NCBI GenBank assembly: GCA_016287975.1
Contig: JAEEXV010000239.1
Location: 1 to 6,515 of the forward strand
DNA: 6,515 nucleotides
Reading direction: 5' to 3'
Source: Lentisphaeria bacterium
GTDB taxonomy: Bacteria; Verrucomicrobiota; Lentisphaeria; Oligosphaerales; Oligosphaeraceae
Below, in pieces: positions 1 through 6,515 of this stretch (its first letter is position 1; every line of letters starts with the position of its first letter). Both the position numbers and the translations under genes were made by a program. The notes beneath the pieces were generated by a model. That model was not told the origin of the DNA. It did no database searches and was given only the letters and a program-made list of their open reading frames with translations.

Positions 1-1380
1 GAAGTAGTCGGTGGATTCGGAGAGGTGGAGGGTGTATTCGAAGGTGTGGGATTTGCGGGCGGGGAAGCCGAGGTGGGAGGAGCCGAACTGCTGGCAGACG
101 AGGCCGTCGGCTAGGGGGATGGTGCGGGCGTGGAGGTGGCAACGGAGGAGGTCATCCTCGACGGCCCAGCCGAGGGAGCCGCCGGCGCCTGCGAGGAAGC
201 CGGTGGGGTTCATGGGGGCGAGGCGGGCGTCGTCGGAGGAGGTGCCCTGTTCGAGGCCGTGCAGCGACCAGTTGGTCAGTTTATGGGTGGGCTGGAGGAC
301 ATGTCGGATGATGACGCCCTGGTCGGTGTCGGTGAGGTTCTCGATGCGCTCGGTGACGCGGATCTTGGCGGGGGATTCGAGGGTGATGAGGCGCTCTACG
401 GCATAGTTCTTGCCGCGTGCGGCGATGCGGAGGCGCCGGGCGTCCTGCGGCAGTACGGTGACGCGCCACTGCGGCTCGGCCTCCGGGACGGGGGAGGCGG
501 CGAGGGCGTTGTTGCGGAGGCGCGGGGTGGCGGGGTAGCTGTAGAAGGAGTGGAGGAGGTAATGCTGGCCTTTGAAGGAGATGCGGTAGCCGCCGGCGGC
601 GAAGGCGGTGATGGAGGTGGGGCCGTCGGTGATGGAGGCGGCGGTCTTGCCGGGGGCGGGGAGGGTTTCGGTGTGGTTCTCGTGGAAGAGGTCCTCCTCC
701 TTGAAGAGGGCGGCGACTTCGGCGGGGTCGAGCGGGCGGTTGTAGAGGTGGAGGTTGTAGAGGAGCCCTGCGTAGGCGTCGCCGCGTCCGGTTTTGGAGC
801 CGAGGTAGATGGGGGAGTCCTCCTGGGGATATTCGGTGGGCGTGTGATGGGTGTGTTCGGAGTCGAGCTGCCCGTCGATGTAGATGCGCATGGTCTTTCC
901 GGGATCGAAGGTGACGACGACATGATACCAGCGCCGCGCGTCGAGGATGCGCTTGCTGTAGAGGTGGGTCGCGCGGCGGACGCCCTTCTGGTGCACGAGG
1001 AAATGGAGCTGTCCGGGATTCGAGGCGTTGTTGCGGAGGCCGAAAGTGGCGTCGCTACGGTAGACAATGGGCGCCCAGTTGTTTTTCCACCAGTAGGCGC
1101 GCACCCAGATCGCGATGGTGAAGGGGCCGGTGATCGGGACGGGCGGCAGGGTGACGCGCGCGCCGCGCGAGTTCTTCATGCCCCCGAAGTCCAGGAGGGT
1201 GAGACCGTTGCTCTGCGGTACCCAGAACGAGTCTTTCGGCGTGAGATCCGGCAGACGCCGCGCCGCTTCGTGCAGCGCAGTGCCTTTCCCTTCGGCCAAG
1301 GTGTAGTGGGCGACTTCGCCGGGAATGGCGGCGAATGCGGCGACGGAGAGGAACAGAAGTGCTGAGAGGAGGGGTTTCAT
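1..1380 (-). CDS. Secreted LamG-domain protein, N-terminal 460 residues (C-terminus beyond window)
   Basis: I translated the minus strand by hand from the ATG at 1380. It stays open for 460 codons to the window edge, so the gene is real but cut at its 3' end. Residues 1-18 (MKPLLSALLFLSVAAFAA) form a signal peptide: Lys, hydrophobic core, then an AFA/AA cleavage region. Residues about 45-225 match a LamG/concanavalin-A-like lectin fold, with DFGGMKNSR, FTIAIWVRAYWW, FGLRNN, RRWYHVVVTFDP and NLHLYNRPLDPAEV. Residues about 255-460 are a further beta-rich region. The protein aligns along its whole visible length with the 891-aa protein at 2381-5056 (shared DFGGMKNSR, NLHLYNR, and PARKS-TFE-TL near the cut), so about 430 residues including the GH-like region are probably missing. 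Role inferred: exported glycan binding or degradation. The start is fixed by the signal peptide and by the paralogue. There is no Shine-Dalgarno: the base before the ATG is the last base of a tandem repeat array. Confidence 0.9.
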   Translation of the reverse strand, partial: MKPLLSALLFLSVAAFAAIPGEVAHYTLAEGKGTALHEAARRLPDLTPKDSFWVPQSNGLTLLDFGGMKNSRGARVTLPPVPITGPFTIAIWVRAYWWKNNWAPIVYRSDATFGLRNNASNPGQLHFLVHQKGVRRATHLYSKRILDARRWYHVVVTFDPGKTMRIYIDGQLDSEHTHHTPTEYPQEDSPIYLGSKTGRGDAYAGLLYNLHLYNRPLDPAEVAALFKEEDLFHENHTETLPAPGKTAASITDGPTSITAFAAGGYRISFKGQHYLLHSFYSYPATPRLRNNALAASPVPEAEPQWRVTVLPQDARRLRIAARGKNYAVERLITLESPAKIRVTERIENLTDTDQGVIIRHVLQPTHKLTNWSLHGLEQGTSSDDARLAPMNPTGFLAGAGGSLGWAVEDDLLRCHLHARTIPLADGLVCQQFGSSHLGFPARKSHTFEYTLHLSESTDYF

Positions 1381-1529
1381 GGGATTTAAGGGATCGAAGG
1401 GATTTAAGGGATCGAAGGGATTTAAGGGATCGAAGGGATTTAAGGGATCGAAGGGATTTAAGGGATCGAAGGGATTTAAGGGACTTAAGGGATTTAAGGG
1501 ATCGAAGGGATCAAAGGGATCGAAGGGAT
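1381..1529. repeat. Tandem repeat array A: 9-bp unit GGGAT(TT/CG)AA, 16 full copies plus 5 bases
   Basis: Perfectly phased 9-mers run from 1381. GGGATTTAA and GGGATCGAA alternate strictly from 1381 to 1479, making an 18-bp higher-order unit. Variants then appear: GGGACTTAA at 1480 and GGGATCAAA at 1507, with a partial GGGAT at 1525. Eight units contain GATC. On the minus strand the array reads TTC-GAT-CCC-TTA-AAT-CCC, that is Phe-Asp-Pro-Leu-Asn-Pro, open and in frame with the LamG gene whose ATG follows directly at 1380. The in-frame opening extends up to a TAA at 1590-1588. The only upstream in-frame candidate start I saw is a TTG at 1572, so the array is more likely an untranslated leader than part of the protein. 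On the plus strand it reads Gly-Phe-Lys/Gly-Ser-Lys in one frame, with no sign of a real gene. Confidence 0.97.
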
Positions 1530-1566
1530 GGTGAAGATAAAAGGCAAGAAAAGTGCTAATTCTTGG

Positions 1567-1594
1567 TTGCAATGATGAAGAATTGGCTTATATT
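1567..1594 (+). promoter_or_regulatory. Candidate sigma70-like promoter towards the four-helix gene
   Basis: TTGCAA (1567-1572), 16 nt, then TATATT (1589-1594). The -10 matches the consensus at 5 of 6 positions and the -35 at 4 of 6. The -10 overlaps that of the candidate minus-strand promoter, so the two would be back to back. The spacer 1530-1623 has 37 G/C of 94 bases, far below the coding flanks, which fits a promoter region. A start near 1601 would place the repeat-encoded TTG codons about 30 nt downstream. No other signal was seen in this spacer. Confidence 0.3.
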
Positions 1595-1614
1595 GCCGCA
1601 AAAGCCGAAAGCAA
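1587..1614 (-). promoter_or_regulatory. Candidate sigma70-like promoter towards the LamG gene
   Basis: On the minus strand, TTGCTT (1614-1609) and TATAAG (1592-1587) are separated by 16 nt. The -10 element matches the consensus at 5 of 6 positions and the -35 at 3 of 6. It lies in the AT-rich spacer between the two repeat arrays. Transcription would start near 1580 and give a leader of about 200 nt that includes all of array A. The match is weak and the host consensus is unknown. The gene could instead have been served by read-through from the upstream operon before the block was inserted. Confidence 0.25.
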
Positions 1615-1623
1615 AGAATCTGC

Positions 1624-1674
1624 AATCCCTTGAATCCCTTGAATCCCTTGAATCCCTTGAATCCCTTGAATCCC
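1624..1674. repeat. Tandem repeat array B: 9-bp unit AATCCCTTG, 5 full copies plus AATCCC
   Basis: Identical 9-mers start at 1624, 1633, 1642, 1651 and 1660, followed by a partial AATCCC at 1669-1674. Read on the minus strand the unit is GGGATTCAA in another register, so array B is an inverted relative of array A (consensus GGGATNNAA). On the plus strand it encodes Leu-Asn-Pro repeats in frame with the four-helix gene and provides TTG codons at 1630, 1639, 1648, 1657 and 1666. In RNA, AAUCCCUUG-type units could pair with GGGAUUUAA units of array A, with one G-U wobble per unit. Confidence 0.97.
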
Positions 1675-2364
1675 AATCGTGAAAGCAGCAAGATCATTCT
1701 GCCGCATTCTGGCTATCGCAAATTGATTGCGTTTCAGAAAAGCGAGGTGATTTATCAAGGGACAGTGGTGTTTTGCCGCCGATTCCTGCCTGCATACGGA
1801 GATCGGACAGTCGATCAGATGACGCAGGCGGCGCGTTCCTGCAAGCAGAACATCGCGGAGGGGAGCGCGGCGGCGGGGACAAGCCTGGAGACGCAGTTGA
1901 AGTTGACGAATGTGGCGCGTGCCTCGCTGGATGAACTGCTGGAGGACTATGTGGACTATCTGAAGTCGCACGGGGCGGCCGAGTGGGCGCAGGGAAGCGA
2001 AGTAAAGGAGCGCGTGCGCGCCTACGCCAAGCGGCATCCCACGTGGGATGGTTGGCAAAGCGCTTTCGAGACGCGGTCGGCGGCGACACTGGGAAATGTG
2101 ATGATCGTGCTGATCCAGCAGTGCCGTTTCCTTTTGGAACGGTTGCTCCATTGGCAGGAAGCAGACTTTCTGGAACACGGTGGTGTCCGCGAACGGATGC
2201 ACGCGGCTCGGACGGAAACGCGCGCGGAATCGTGGGACAAAGGGGTCTATTCGGTGCTGGATGCGGCGCCAGATGCCGCCGAGGTGGATCGGCGACTGGC
2301 CGAAATGGTCGCGGAGATTCAACGGATGGCGTTTGGGATTTGCAAACGGAAGGGGTGGAGGTGA
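1630..2364 (+). CDS. Four-helix-bundle protein (S23/Avd-like superfamily, 'four helix bundle suffix' type)
   Basis: The 244-aa frame runs from a TTG at 1630 to a TGA at 2362-2364. Residues 1-15 are five Leu-Asn-Pro triplets from repeat array B. The conserved domain begins near residue 22 (IILPHSGYRKL). Residues 66-78 carry the family signature Q-A-A-R-S-C-K-Q-N-I-A-E-G, followed by ETQLKLTNVARASLDELLEDY and a late EADFLEHGGVRERM segment, all predicted amphipathic helices. This is my recognition of the family related to the proteins encoded in 23S rRNA intervening sequences and to the Avd accessory protein of diversity-generating retroelements. The biochemical function of most stand-alone members is unknown; nucleic-acid binding is plausible. 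The start is uncertain: any of five TTG codons could serve, none has a Shine-Dalgarno, and the first in-frame ATG (residue 64) lies inside the domain. The gene opposes all others here, looks less G/C-rich than its neighbours, and ends 16 nt from the convergent stop at 2381. No reverse transcriptase or rRNA was seen nearby. Confidence 0.87.
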   Translation: MNPLNPLNPLNPLNPNRESSKIILPHSGYRKLIAFQKSEVIYQGTVVFCRRFLPAYGDRTVDQMTQAARSCKQNIAEGSAAAGTSLETQLKLTNVARASLDELLEDYVDYLKSHGAAEWAQGSEVKERVRAYAKRHPTWDGWQSAFETRSAATLGNVMIVLIQQCRFLLERLLHWQEADFLEHGGVRERMHAARTETRAESWDKGVYSVLDAAPDAAEVDRRLAEMVAEIQRMAFGICKRKGWR

Positions 2365-2380
2365 AAAGGGATAACGGGGG

Positions 2381-5056
2381 TTATTCGAGGATCAGGAATT
2401 CCTGCCAGTCGGCGATTTTCACGGTGATGGACCAGTTGCCAGGGGCGCCGGTGATGGCGGCGGCGTCGCCGACGGGGATGGGATGTCCGACGGCGTCGAA
2501 GCGCAGCACGGCGGGTTTTCCTGGCTTGCCCCAGGTGGTCGTGTAGGAGACACAGGAGACGATGCGCTCCCTGCCCTTGATCCAGCCTCGGTGGAGTTCG
2601 ACGGGGGTGATGGGGAACGAGTGGTTGATGGGGCCGTAGCCGCCTTTTTCCTCGGGGAAGAAGTTGCGGACGGAGGTGTGGACATAGAGGCAGCCGTGGC
2701 GCAGATAGGCGCGGACGCGCTTCATGAGGCGTACGGGGTCGATTTCCTCGGTGCGGTGGGGGCCGTAGGCGAGGGGGGTGGAGAGCTGGTTCATGGTGCA
2801 GCCTGAGGCCTCTGGTGGGATGGCGTCGAGATTCTGGTGGCCGATGCCGTTTCCTGCGGCTTCGCAGAAGTTCATGTAGGGGATGGTCTGGAGGTTCCGC
2901 GTGGTGGGGGCGCCGAAGTTGGTGAGGGCGATCTTGCCGCGGCGCAGGATGTCCTTGAGCCAGATTTCGCGGGCGGGGGCGGTGAGGGGGCCGAGGTGGG
3001 CGAAGCGCGACGCGATGCGGCCGTTGGGGAGGACGGAGACGGAGAAGCCGTCCCAGCGGTCGTGGAGCACGGAGGGTGCTCCTGCGAATCCGAACATGTC
3101 CTGGTAGACGCCGTCGAGGCCGACCTCGTCGAGGAGGAAGGCGTATTCGTCGAGGCGCCGCTGGAAGAAGTGGTTTCCGACGAGGGGGTGGACGATCAGA
3201 TAGAGCGCGGGGTGCGGGTTTCCTGCGACGGGGGTGTCTGGATAGAGGTCGATATTGCCGTTCCTGTGGAGGGTGGCGGAGTCGCGCCACGGGGATTCGA
3301 GGACGCGTCGGCGGGTGGCGGGGGTGGCCTTCTTCCAGGAGAAGCCAGGGGCGGCGGGGGTGGTGAAGTCGGATTCGGCGAGGCAATAGACGATGGTCTC
3401 CAGGCCAGCGAGGAAGATGGCGTCGGGGACGGCTTCGCGGATGACGCGCATGGCCTCCTGGATGTGGCGCTTGTATTCGTCGCGGGTACTGAAGATGGTG
3501 CCGTCCCAGTAGTTGAAGCAGGGGCTGAGGTTGAAGACGCGGGCGTTGCGGCGCTGGAAGAACGCTTTCATGGCGGCGGGGTCGGCGGCGAAGCGTCGGT
3601 AGGTCTCGGAGCGCTGGGCGGCGGTTCGGAAGCCGACGATGGGGCCAGGGATGGTGACGACGGGGATCTGCCAGTCGCGACGGAGGCGGTTGAGGAAGTC
3701 GAAGTAGTCGCCGCGCACGGGATAGAGGGTGAACTCGAAGGTGCGGGACTTGCGGGCGGGGATGCCGATGCGGCGGCTGCCGAAGAGGCAGGTGGCGGGG
3801 GCGTCCTTCGGCGCGCGGACGGCGGATTCGAGGTGGCATCGGAAGGCGTCGTCCTCGACGACCCAGGCCAGGGCGTCCTCGCCGCACGAGAACCATCCCG
3901 TGGGGTTGCAGCCCGGGACGCCGCTGGGGGAGCGCGCGTTTTCCTCGCCGTGGAGGACCCATTCGCGCAGGGGCGTCTCGCTCTGGAGGAAGTGGGTGAA
4001 GACGAAGGCCTGGTCCTCGTCGGTGAGGTTGGTCACGCGGTCGGAGACGCGGATGCGCCCGTCAGGCAGATGGCGGATGCGTCGGTCGAGGCGGTAGAAG
4101 GCGCCGTGGGCGGAGACGGCGGCCTCGCCCTGGCTGAGGTCGAGTACGGCGGGCTTCCAGGTGGGCTCGCCGCCTGGGACGGGGGTGGCGGCGAGGAGGT
4201 TGGTGCCCATGTAGGGCTCGGCGGGATAGGCGCAGGACGTGCTCAGGAGGAAGGCGGCCTTGCCTGCGCGGATCCGCAGCGCGCCGCCTGAAAGCACCTC
4301 GGCGCCTGGGAGGGCGGCGGCGGCGGGGCCGCTGCGCGGGAGGCGCGCTTCCTCGGGGACGGGGAGGCTGAAGCGGTTCTCGCTCTGGTAGAGGCCGAGG
4401 ATCTCCTGTGGGGAGAGGGCGCGGTTATAGAGATGCAAATTGGAGAGGACGCCCGCATAGCCTGGATTTTTGCCCGCGCGCCCCATGGTGAAGCAGTCCT
4501 GGTCGTGCGCGAGGTGGACGGGGACTTTTCCGGTGCGCTCGGCGTCAAGGCGGCCGTTGACGTAGAGGCGGAGATACTGGCCTGGCTTGAAGACGGCGGC
4601 GAGGTGGTACCAGGTGCTGCGGTCCAGGACGGTGGAGCTGAAGAGGTTGGCGCCGCGCTTGGCGTCCCTGTCCTTGACGCGGAAGAGGATCTGGCCTGGC
4701 TTGTTCTGGTTGTTGCGGAGGCCGTAGGTGGTGTCGCCGCGCGAGCAGATGGGGCCCCAGTTCTCGTGCCACCAGTAGGCGGAGACCCAGATGGCGATGG
4801 TGAATTCGCCGTCGAACTCGATGTGCGGCAGGGTGGCCTGGGCCAGGCGGGAGTTCTTCATCCCGCCGAAGTCGATGAGGGTGAGCCCGTCGCGCGTCAT
4901 CCAGAAGGAATCGGTGATGCGGATGGGCGGCAGGCGCCCGTGCGCCTCCTTCGCCTCGGTGCCCGCCCCGTCATGCAGCGGATACCAGGCGATTTCACCA
5001 GGGATGGTGGCGGCATGCAGGGCGATGCCAAGGAGGAGCAGGATGGCGTATTTCAT
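2381..5056 (-). CDS. Secreted LamG-domain protein with GH-like barrel region, 891 aa
   Basis: Complete gene. Residues 1-16 (MKYAILLLLGIALHAA) are a signal peptide. Residues about 45-225 form a LamG/concanavalin-A-like domain (FTIAIWVSAYWW, STWYHLAAVFKPGQYLRLYVNGRL, NLHLYNRALSPQEI). Residues about 240-455 are a beta-rich region (YRLDRRIRHLPDGRIRVSDR, then VTNLTDEDQ). Residues about 460-800 resemble a TIM-barrel glycoside-hydrolase-like domain: LDEVGLDGVYQDMFGF (641-656) is like the 'G-x-D-G-x-Y-x-D' strand of several GH-like families, making Asp653 a candidate active-site acid, with Glu553 and Glu732 other acidic candidates. Residues about 815-891 look like a small C-terminal beta domain. Inferred role: exported binding and perhaps cleavage of a polysaccharide; substrate unknown. 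It lies 45 nt after the prepilin gene with no clear Shine-Dalgarno (CCGCCCTCCC before the ATG). A paralogue lies downstream beyond the four-helix block. LamG assignment is firm; the enzymatic assignment is tentative. Confidence 0.92.
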   Translation of the reverse strand: MKYAILLLLGIALHAATIPGEIAWYPLHDGAGTEAKEAHGRLPPIRITDSFWMTRDGLTLIDFGGMKNSRLAQATLPHIEFDGEFTIAIWVSAYWWHENWGPICSRGDTTYGLRNNQNKPGQILFRVKDRDAKRGANLFSSTVLDRSTWYHLAAVFKPGQYLRLYVNGRLDAERTGKVPVHLAHDQDCFTMGRAGKNPGYAGVLSNLHLYNRALSPQEILGLYQSENRFSLPVPEEARLPRSGPAAAALPGAEVLSGGALRIRAGKAAFLLSTSCAYPAEPYMGTNLLAATPVPGGEPTWKPAVLDLSQGEAAVSAHGAFYRLDRRIRHLPDGRIRVSDRVTNLTDEDQAFVFTHFLQSETPLREWVLHGEENARSPSGVPGCNPTGWFSCGEDALAWVVEDDAFRCHLESAVRAPKDAPATCLFGSRRIGIPARKSRTFEFTLYPVRGDYFDFLNRLRRDWQIPVVTIPGPIVGFRTAAQRSETYRRFAADPAAMKAFFQRRNARVFNLSPCFNYWDGTIFSTRDEYKRHIQEAMRVIREAVPDAIFLAGLETIVYCLAESDFTTPAAPGFSWKKATPATRRRVLESPWRDSATLHRNGNIDLYPDTPVAGNPHPALYLIVHPLVGNHFFQRRLDEYAFLLDEVGLDGVYQDMFGFAGAPSVLHDRWDGFSVSVLPNGRIASRFAHLGPLTAPAREIWLKDILRRGKIALTNFGAPTTRNLQTIPYMNFCEAAGNGIGHQNLDAIPPEASGCTMNQLSTPLAYGPHRTEEIDPVRLMKRVRAYLRHGCLYVHTSVRNFFPEEKGGYGPINHSFPITPVELHRGWIKGRERIVSCVSYTTTWGKPGKPAVLRFDAVGHPIPVGDAAAITGAPGNWSITVKIADWQEFLILE

Positions 5057-5101
5057 GGGAGGGCGGTCTTTTCTACAATGCGGTCAGGTGGCGGAAGCGG
5101 C

Positions 5102-5902
5102 TCACTCGTCGAACATGAGGGGGAGGCGGCACCAGCTGGTCTTGGAGTACCAGGCGTCGGCGTCGGAGAGCGGGCGGATGAATTTGGAACTGGCGTGTCC
5201 GTCGACCATGAGGGCGTTGAACTGGCCGTTCGGGTGGTTGGGCTTGGAAGTGCCCTGGCTGTGGACGTCGCGGCAGGAGACGCCGTTGCCGTTGGAGAAC
5301 ATGTCGGCGTACATGATGGAGCCGCCGTGGTCGCGGCCGACGCGGGCGCGGAGGCTCTTGTTCTCCTTCCAGTTCCTGTAGTAGTCGGCGGTGCAGCGGG
5401 AGGAGCCTGCCACGGCACTCTTCTCGGGGATTTCATCGAGGGAGGCGTAGTTCCAGAAGATATAGGACATGGGTGCGGAGCCGTTGGTGGCGGTGGGAAC
5501 CTCGAAGTTGAAGGAGTCGGAGGGGCAGCGGAAGAGCTGGCGGACGGCCTTGGAGAAGGACTTGGAGTCCGAGGGGATGCCGCTGCCGAGGAGGCCTTCG
5601 CTGAAGAGGAGGTTGGCGGGGGAGGAGTTGGGGGTGGTGGAGAGTTTGTAGTAGGCGCAGGCGGCCAGGTGGACGGTGCCGTTGCTGGTGCCGTAGTTGA
5701 GGGTGTAGGGGAGCCAGTCGTTGTTACTGGAGGCGTAGATGTGGCTGGCGATGCCGATCTGCTTGAGGTTGTTGATGCAGGAGATGGAGCGCGCCTTCTC
5801 GCGGGCCTTGGAGAGGGCGGGCAGGAGCATCGAGGCGAGGATCGCGATGATGGCGATGACGACGAGGAGTTCGATCAGGGTGAACGGGCGGGGCTTTTTC
5901 AT
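5102..5902 (-). CDS. Type IV prepilin/pseudopilin-like protein (N-methylation domain), 266 aa
   Basis: The ATG at 5902 begins [23 protein letters not shown], a class III prepilin signal: short basic leader, predicted cleavage before Phe7, Glu11 as the fifth mature residue, and a hydrophobic helix at about 12-30. [30 protein letters not shown] follows, typical of the abundant PVC-group prepilin-like proteins (DUF1559/H-X9-DG related). CPSD at 126-129 also fits. The C-terminal H...DG element is His223 to Asp234-Gly235, ten residues between instead of the usual nine. Position -1 is Pro6, not the Gly of classical prepilins; relaxed -1 residues are, from general knowledge, common in this group. 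It would be an inner-membrane-anchored, periplasm-facing subunit of a pseudopilus or envelope structure. The start is chosen because the frame stays open upstream but only this ATG gives the prepilin signal. It begins 7 nt after the upstream stop, with at best a weak GGATGA ribosome site, so translational coupling is likely. Confidence 0.93.
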
Positions 5903-5909
5903 GGTTGTT

Positions 5910-6515
5910 TCATCCGATGGCTTGGGTGAGTTTCTGCCAGCACTCGATGCCGGCGTTGTCTTCGTTGATTTCAAGAAAAATGGGTGCGTGGGGGAGTTGT
6001 CCTTCGCGGAGGGCGAGGAGGAATCCCGAGAGGGAGATGAGTTTGTCGTGGAGGCCGTTGAGGCGGCGGTGGTTGGAGAAGGTTCCGTCGTGGTTCTGGC
6101 GGACCTGGTGGAAGTGGTAGCCGTTGACGATGGAGCCGAGGCGGCGGTAGTAGTCGCTGAGGTTTTCGGTGGCGGAGAAGGGGGCGTTGTTGCGGGCGTG
6201 GCCGAGGTCGAGGTGGAAGCCGATGCGGTCGGGCGCGGCGGAGACGGCGCGCAGATCCTCGATCCAGGCACGGCATTCCTCGATGGTGCAGCCGTAGTTG
6301 CGGTGGGCGTCGTCGGTGGCGCCTGGCGTGGTGTGGAGGTTCTCGATGCCGATCTCGACGCCTGCGGCGGGGAGGTGGTCGGCGATGGCGCGGAAGCGGT
6401 CGATGAGGTCGGCGCGCGCGGCGGGGAAGGCGGCGGCGGTGACCTTGGGGACGTGCAGGGTGGCGCGCGCGCAGCCGAGGTCCAGGGTCAACTGGACGGC
6501 GGCGGCGAGGCCGCC
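5910..6515 (-). CDS. Xylose-isomerase-like TIM-barrel protein (sugar phosphate isomerase/epimerase family), C-terminal part
   Basis: Open from the window edge for 201 codons to the TGA at 5912-5910; the 5' end lies outside. An apparent start at 6491 is a TTG inside a continuous frame ([24 protein letters not shown]), so it is not taken as the start. Motifs of the xylose-isomerase-like/AP-endonuclease-2 barrel appear in order, counted from the first visible residue: VEIGIENL (Glu58), GFHLDLGHA (His101, Asp103, His106), YHFHQ (His134, His136) and IFLEIN (Glu182). These are the usual metal-binding or catalytic positions of the fold. Family members are commonly about 270-290 aa, so roughly 70-90 residues are missing. 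Probable role: cytoplasmic isomerisation or epimerisation of a sugar or cyclitol. The exact reaction cannot be read from the sequence, because the family is broad and includes proteins of unknown substrate. It is the first visible gene of the operon that includes the prepilin and the LamG protein. Confidence 0.88.

Follow-up and report, generated by a model that had tools for sequence, protein, structure and literature searches.

S23-family four-helix-bundle genes bracketed by short tandem arrays as a probable transposase-free mobile unit

We analysed a block at positions 1381 to 2380 of a 6,515-nt stretch of DNA from a Lentisphaeria bacterium (contig JAEEXV010000239.1 of assembly GCA_016287975.1; the whole stretch is called the window below). 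The block holds an S23-family four-helix-bundle gene bracketed by inverted tandem arrays of a 9-bp word. It is probably a transposase-free mobile unit in which the arrays would consist of the recognition word of the protein itself; we infer both the binding and the movement. The unit recurs in related genomes, some of which have it and some of which lack it at a given site, and in others it lies elsewhere. A sequence-only reading of the window had proposed a non-autonomous mobile cassette and had asked for further copies of the gene with its arrays and for empty sites. Relatives had both, the empty sites upstream of mfd and between cas6 and cas4, and together they support that proposal. The phenomenon is also wider than the earlier reading held, and takes in plain S23 genes whose arrays have 7-bp units.

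The block and its recurrence in relatives

Two opposed arrays were found on the upstream side of the gene. The forward array (1381..1533, plus strand) has 17 units of GGGATNNAA, read as AAGGGATNN, which corresponds to XYGNGAYNN with AA as XY. The last of its units, GGGATGGTG, is degenerate, one other unit is GGGACTTAA, and the NN positions alternate for the most part between TT and CG. The reverse array (1624..1676, minus strand) has about six units of GGGATTCAA. Between these arms lies a spacer (1534..1623, no strand) that is AT-rich by base count, with 37 G/C in the 94 nt of 1530-1623, exactly the figure given earlier. The gene (1630..2364, plus strand; conserved part 1675-2361) encodes P0121, an S23-family four-helix-bundle protein with a C-terminal suffix domain. 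It is followed at 2366..2374 by a single plus-strand unit, AAGGGATAA, and many relatives have a second series of forward array, spacer and reverse array at this place. A three-unit array pattern with at most one mismatch gave 18 matches in the window, versus none in 200 dinucleotide-preserving shuffles.

The start of the gene is uncertain. The frame ahead of the conserved start has no ATG or GTG, and its TTG codons (1630, 1639, 1648, 1657 and 1666) are all inside the reverse array. Because only these codons precede the conserved start, the reverse array and the N-terminus of P0121 probably overlap, judging from the reading frame. In P0001, a relative with 85% identity, the array is likewise read into the N-terminus (MNPLNPLNPG...), and translated repeats were seen at the ends of several other relatives of P0121. 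The array was translated as a part of the protein in P0062, P0085, P0105, P0106 and P0111, with leaders such as SPGSPG, GQPGQTG and TGTNGT.

P0121 matched TIGR04258 (four helix bundle suffix domain) with 66.4 bits, above the curated cut-off of 40, and TIGR02436 (four helix bundle protein) with 28.4 bits, above the cut-off of 24. The match to PF05635 (29.0 bits) was slightly below the cut-off of 33.8. The fold found for P0121 is the S23 four-helix bundle of the 2gsc / 2rld type. A PDB search by sequence gave nothing under E 0.5, and no Y1/HuH transposase family was matched at E 0.001 or better. In the protein search at least 7720 of the 7999 scored proteins had E 0.001 or better, among the matches listed.

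The block fills the space between two paralogous LamG genes, identified by protein comparison (41% identity across 446 columns) and by domain match (Laminin_G_3 in each). Position 1381 is the first base past the CAT (reversed ATG) of LamG gene 1 (1..1380, minus strand, extending beyond the window edge), and 2380 is the last base ahead of the reversed stop codon of LamG gene 2 (2381..5056, minus strand). The next two genes of the window, a DUF1559/pilin-like gene and a xylose-isomerase-like TIM barrel gene, are also on the minus strand, and the four-helix gene on the plus strand is thus opposed to its neighbours. The earlier description of one opposed four-helix gene with two inverted 9-bp arrays, reaching from the base after one LamG start codon to the stop of the other LamG gene, was confirmed by these coordinates.

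A genome scan identified 209 relatives, and the best 80 of these 209 were used for the flank counts. Judged by title, they came mostly from Kiritimatiellae and other Verrucomicrobiota of the rumen and gut, with some from Bacteroidota and others. Within the class the family was present at E 1e-20 or better in 191 of 288 genomes. Arrays with a period of 9, or a multiple of it, were found at most 400 bp from the gene in 54/75 loci upstream and 51/76 loci downstream (105/151 sides), as compared to 14 of 663 random windows from the same loci. Tandem Repeats Finder (TRF) detected no array in 8 of the 71 loci with both flanks. By eye, weaker 9-bp arrays were seen in L003, L028, L040 and L046 and a 10-bp array in L076; L059 has 8-bp arrays. 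One side of a gene can be laid out as forward arm, spacer and reverse arm. Both arms were present on 65 of the 160 sides of the 80 genes, and the order was forward then reverse in 65/65, with the G-rich arm first and the C-rich arm second; the remaining sides had one arm or none. A direct array match of at least 60 nt was common to both flanks in 28/113 genes.

The usual unit is XYGNGAYNN, in which the single N is mostly G, A or C and the final NN is free and variable between units, and XY and the pyrimidine are characteristic of each locus. The core finder, which required GNGAY or NGGAY, gave a word for 87 of the 125 unique genes. TRF words, obtained without a core requirement, contained the core in 56/66 loci; the remaining words (10/66 loci) differed and belonged to Prevotella and some others, several of them from Bacteroidota. 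A G-quadruplex was tried as the common principle and dropped, since A or C frequently occupies the second position of GNGAY (G 656, A 197, C 154 and T 19 of 1026 units).

Filled and empty sites

The site upstream of mfd was read in 7 of the 16 genomes searched. The unit was present in G004, G203 and G292. G279 has these neighbours too, 93% and 95% identical, and lacks about 1.35 kb between them, and G221 and G006 had no unit upstream of mfd; the contig end of G284 was too near to show either state. Units with 94% identity to each other were found in two different positions, right after the gltX stop codon in G007 and between another gene and guaA in G219. There was no unit in the gltX regions of G219, G003, G295, G268, G188, G284 and G006, nor in the guaA regions of G007, G003, G295, G268, G188 and G006. 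Likewise, L004 and L038 have four syntenic blocks in common, with the unit in different gaps.

A further site was the spacer between cas6 and cas4. In Pseudanabaena galeata this spacer is 712 bp long and holds an S23 gene with arrays; in strain ABRG5-3 it is 50 bp with four AATTACG-like heptamers, and the flanks are 89.7% and 88.5% identical to those of Pseudanabaena galeata. Anabaena sp. 90 also has an S23 gene with arrays there (849 bp). In Dolichospermum UHCC 0315A, with flanks 98.7% and 99.6% identical to Anabaena sp. 90, a different 273-bp stretch with inverted ends (GTAGGTTGGGTTGACG...) was found instead (L325, 1227-1499). This suggests that the cas6-cas4 spacer is a shared landing place. 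Taken together, the settings of the unit are unrelated: the LamG cluster, mfd, gltX, hsdM, cas6-cas4 and nrd genes.

By eye, the junctions showed no consistent short target-site duplication. In L165 (G018:C100) 66 nt from the 3' end of hsdM are duplicated at 94% identity across the unit, on both gene sides, as if insertion had duplicated or restored the end of the target gene. A dispersed repeat of 65-105 bp (TGTGATAATCATGTGATG type) was seen directly upstream of the unit in L027 (about 5683-5790), with copies in G011, G243, G203, G279 and G004; it recurs elsewhere in the genus and is perhaps another small repeat family. The pair L039/L043 was considered as a one-sided rearrangement and rejected, as it is a single locus with 98% identity. 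For the window itself, DNA of 2300-6515 gave no ortholog of the flanks in the 288 genomes of the class; the matches (114 genomes with any) were mainly to the conserved start of pilin-like genes.

Array word, array period and protein architecture

We compared the array words with a tree of the proteins from 66 of the 125 genes (period 9, more than 240 bits, at least four units). The rows with the GGGAT word type, including the window, formed a single clade (10 rows; Shimodaira-Hasegawa-like approximate likelihood-ratio support of 97). The choice of T or C in the word required one change on the tree (mean 9.5 and minimum 7 in 300 shuffles), and XY required 15 changes (mean 36.5 and minimum 32 when shuffled). 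Residue 111 of P0121 tracks the second base of the word: K with A in 23/23, R with C in 14/15, A/S/T/V/M/N with T in 22/22 and G with G in 5/6. Within the GGGAT clade, L062 has T as second base together with N111. Residue 111 is a candidate specificity determinant, as a lead and not as proof.

The period of the array matches the architecture of the protein, being 7-8 for plain S23 and 9 with the suffix domain. Suffix proteins above 150 bits had period 9 on 117 of 133 array-bearing sides. The control set was drawn from 12 genomes of the class and comprised 22 plain S23 genes (TIGR02436), most of which encode 114-147 aa. They too had arrays near the gene, often as an inverted pair, with a period of 7 or 8 on 22/43 sides and of 9 on none. 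Plain S23 genes on cyanobacterial plasmids had a period of 7 or 8 on 20/28 sides and in 13/14 loci, versus 11 of 495 overlapping background windows, taken from three of those plasmids with one stretch per plasmid. For plain S23 overall this gave a period of 7 or 8 on 42/71 sides and again no period 9. In L282, L300 and L303, plain S23 loci of one type, both opposed 7-bp arms were upstream by eye, and most others had one arm per side.

For the plasmids, 14 of the 38 records matched by the plain S23 query were picked by hand, and the one record matched by the suffix protein (Prevotella nigrescens) was added. The two neighbour genes were co-directional in 15/15 of these loci, which are fewer than 15 independent cases as some represent the same site (L312/L313). 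The guest gene was on the strand of its neighbours in 10 and opposed to them in 5, as it is in the window. Examples are nrdB-S23-nrdA, cas10-S23-cmr3 and cas6-S23-cas4. No relative was found in viral contigs, and none in phages.

The orientation of the guest gene bears on an alternative at the RNA level, by analogy with the intervening sequences (IVS) of 23S rRNA. Here the array pairs would form hairpins in transcripts that are cut by RNase III, and the four-helix protein would bind them as RNA. The units resemble IVS in having the S23p protein family, paired borders of the guest and a sporadic distribution, and IVS are bordered by a stem and cut by RNase III (PMC4990558); in transcripts of our units, up to 7/9 positions could be paired between the arms. 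However, the identity of NN between arms in hairpin register was 0.399 versus 0.417 when shuffled (63 pairs). NN is thus not complementary, so selection does not maintain a perfect RNA stem. A unit opposed to its neighbours, as in the window and the five plasmid loci, would also not be released from their sense transcript. Whereas IVS are located in rRNA helices, these units lie between protein genes and have period-matched tandem arrays, and the window unit sits between LamG genes, outside rRNA. Rfam gave no rRNA in window positions 1300-2500, and two microRNA families far below the cut-offs were taken as chance matches from the paired arrays. Altogether an RNA-level element seems quite unlikely to us.

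Gene-less arrays, known systems and meaning

Arrays also occur without the gene. In 12 hand-picked genomes the three-unit pattern, allowing two mismatches, was found in 12/12, and the reversed control gave one match over all 12. Eighteen of 20 stretches around pattern matches, also picked by hand, were without a four-helix gene. By eye these orphan arrays were mostly intergenic and close to gene starts or ends, and some were inside reading frames (L135). The arrays are dispersed and differ between relatives: one conserved spacer, read in 31 of the 58 genomes searched, had an orphan array in 3/31, with the GGGAT word in two genomes and GGGAC at the same place in the third (91% identity). In L264 (G278:C18) that spacer is occupied by another tandem repeat, of the aaaggttg type, so several repeat families use it. 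A stricter AA-type pattern was found in 36 of the 288 genomes (control 0).

These dispersed arrays could be read as the targets of a stationary regulatory pair, in which the four-helix protein would bind operator arrays at its own gene and at other places, and the differences between genomes would be ordinary gain and loss. The position of orphan arrays near gene starts and ends, their variation between relatives and the units whose site is the same across several related genomes would fit such a pair. However, the unit occurs in unrelated settings and is gained or lost as one block with its arrays, which makes a purely stationary pair rather unlikely. A travelling unit is compatible with regulatory use of the orphan arrays.

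Chance company would be another explanation: the arrays would have arisen by slippage in spacers that tolerate them, and the four-helix genes would be there by coincidence. Arrays are widespread in some genomes and also occur in reading frames, as noted above, and heptamer repeats have been attributed to slippage or phase variation (PMC4679880, PMC6344855). Slippage predicts neither the enrichment of arrays at gene sides (105/151 versus 14/663 windows) nor the uniform polarity of the two-arm sides (65/65) nor a period linked to protein architecture, and we regard coincidence as extremely unlikely.

Several points weigh against a mobile unit with its own recognition word. The co-variation of word and clade alone is no proof of recognition, because any sequence inherited with a gene clusters on the tree of that gene. 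Residue 111 was chosen post hoc as one of the best columns, and it offers 2 independent contrasts on well-supported branches and 3 on all, below test size. On 61 of 100 sides of suffix members at 150-260 bits TRF found no array at score 40, and the distant relatives L101-L103 (111-113 bits), although long at 246-261 aa, had a period of 7-8 on 6/6 sides. Unit sites shared between related genomes (L007/L009/L014, L026/L027, L034/L037/L005) indicate that units are mostly inherited in place, which speaks against rapid movement, and presence or absence alone does not separate insertion from loss. The family was present in 34 of the 36 genomes with AA-type arrays versus 157 of the 252 others, a comparison that includes the gene's own arrays. 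G009 contains arrays of AA type, yet those of its close family member are of CC type. Arrays are numerous in G290, whose only family member is a distant one, and are present in G177 and G271, where no member was found at E 1e-20. All of these genomes may be draft assemblies.

The neighbours of the units were searched for mobility enzymes. No transposase, integrase or reverse transcriptase was found in the genes of the window, as the sequence-only reading had said of the block for the first two. Among 589 neighbouring frames the most frequent families were hsdM (9 loci), SLFN_AlbA_2 (7) and a YhcG-type PDDEXK nuclease (4). Representatives of the 11 neighbour families with at least three loci each, 7 with Pfam matches and 4 without, had no match to a transposase, integrase or reverse transcriptase. 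The hsdM-like neighbours were beside suffix-type units in L016, L019, L100, L165, L172, L177, L180, L184 and L195. Together these frequent families raise the question whether the units prefer defence loci. A LamG-domain neighbour was present in L061, L064 and L079 as in the window, with Laminin_G_3 in the cluster representative. PADLOC gave no match, and PHROGs gave one match only (E 0.06).

The unit might also be an accessory of a diversity-generating retroelement, similar to Avd and partnered with a reverse transcriptase encoded elsewhere. Avd (8ub7) ranked third among the solved folds for P0121 and a resemblance of PF05635 to Avd has been remarked (PMC10053308); the fold is probably in common. 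In contrast to Avd systems, the units have no nearby reverse transcriptase and P0121 has about 60 extra C-terminal residues. In 12 genomes, 0/15 reverse transcriptase matches were on the contig bearing the gene, and 4/12 genomes had no such match at all. We consider an Avd-like accessory very unlikely. One orphan AA-type array (G008:C135, 2729-2791) lay some 1 kb away from a match to reverse transcriptase (3763-4311).

Among known mobile systems, the layout recalls that of REPIN-RAYT, in which one gene is flanked by cognate inverted repeats and copies are dispersed between genes (PMC3116915); our unit has a gene flanked by inverted repeats of one type and dispersed copies. REP repeats are also thought to co-evolve with the RAYT protein (PMC3116915). 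However, RAYT is a Y1 transposase (PMC3116915), and here only PF05635/TIGR02436 and TIGR04258 were found; REPs are a palindrome of 20-40 bp (PMC3733652), and here units of 7-9 bp are repeated in tandem. Among the features tested, the unit thus lacks a defining feature of each of REPIN-RAYT, IVS and Avd systems.

The joint travel of the gene and its arrays, and the match of word and period to the protein, are most simply explained by direct recognition. One protein subunit would bind one repeat unit, and the suffix domain would widen the packing of adjacent subunits by about 2 bp, corresponding to the free NN. Protein bound on opposed arms could then hold these arms together, and a host enzyme, or one acting in trans, would copy or move the unit or an array alone. 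Recombination between arrays would be the alternative. One of these two routes is probable, because no enzyme was found to travel with the unit. The helper could be a reverse transcriptase, solely by analogy with Avd. The Xanthomonas S23p is known to form a pentamer (PMC4990558).

Heptanucleotide tandem repeats of this kind are named STRR. Intergenic tandem 7-mers near genes have been described in Nostoc, Xanthomonas, Beggiatoaceae and others, and the function of bacterial tandem heptamers is unexplained (PMC4692102, PMC6344855, PMC4679880). They resemble the arrays studied here, but no partner protein is named in the available text of these sources, whereas here S23 genes on cyanobacterial plasmids carry 7-mers or 8-mers. 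The term count for S23 or four-helix proteins was 0 in the available text of PMC4679880 and PMC4692102, and no published link between these proteins and tandem arrays was found by title or abstract in the full-text library searched. It is an even question whether S23/Avd-fold proteins are the missing partners of the bacterial intergenic tandem 7-, 8- and 9-mers in general, including the cyanobacterial and Xanthomonas heptamers. Each protein would read one unit, and the period would be the packing distance on nucleic acid, 7 for the bare bundle and 9 with the suffix. Gene and arrays would then make up a mobile element of a new, transposase-free class, which would also give rise to arrays without the gene across the genome.

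The heptamer repeats published for Nostoc, Xanthomonas and other bacteria now have in S23 proteins a partner that can be tested, and two old puzzles would merge into one testable question. From the relation of protein to word, together with the period linked to architecture, the array that each protein should bind can be predicted. Should the unit move without an enzyme of its own, it would be a mobile element of a kind undescribed in the literature searched, and a mobile gene with matching repeats hints at a role for many unexplained short repeats of bacteria.
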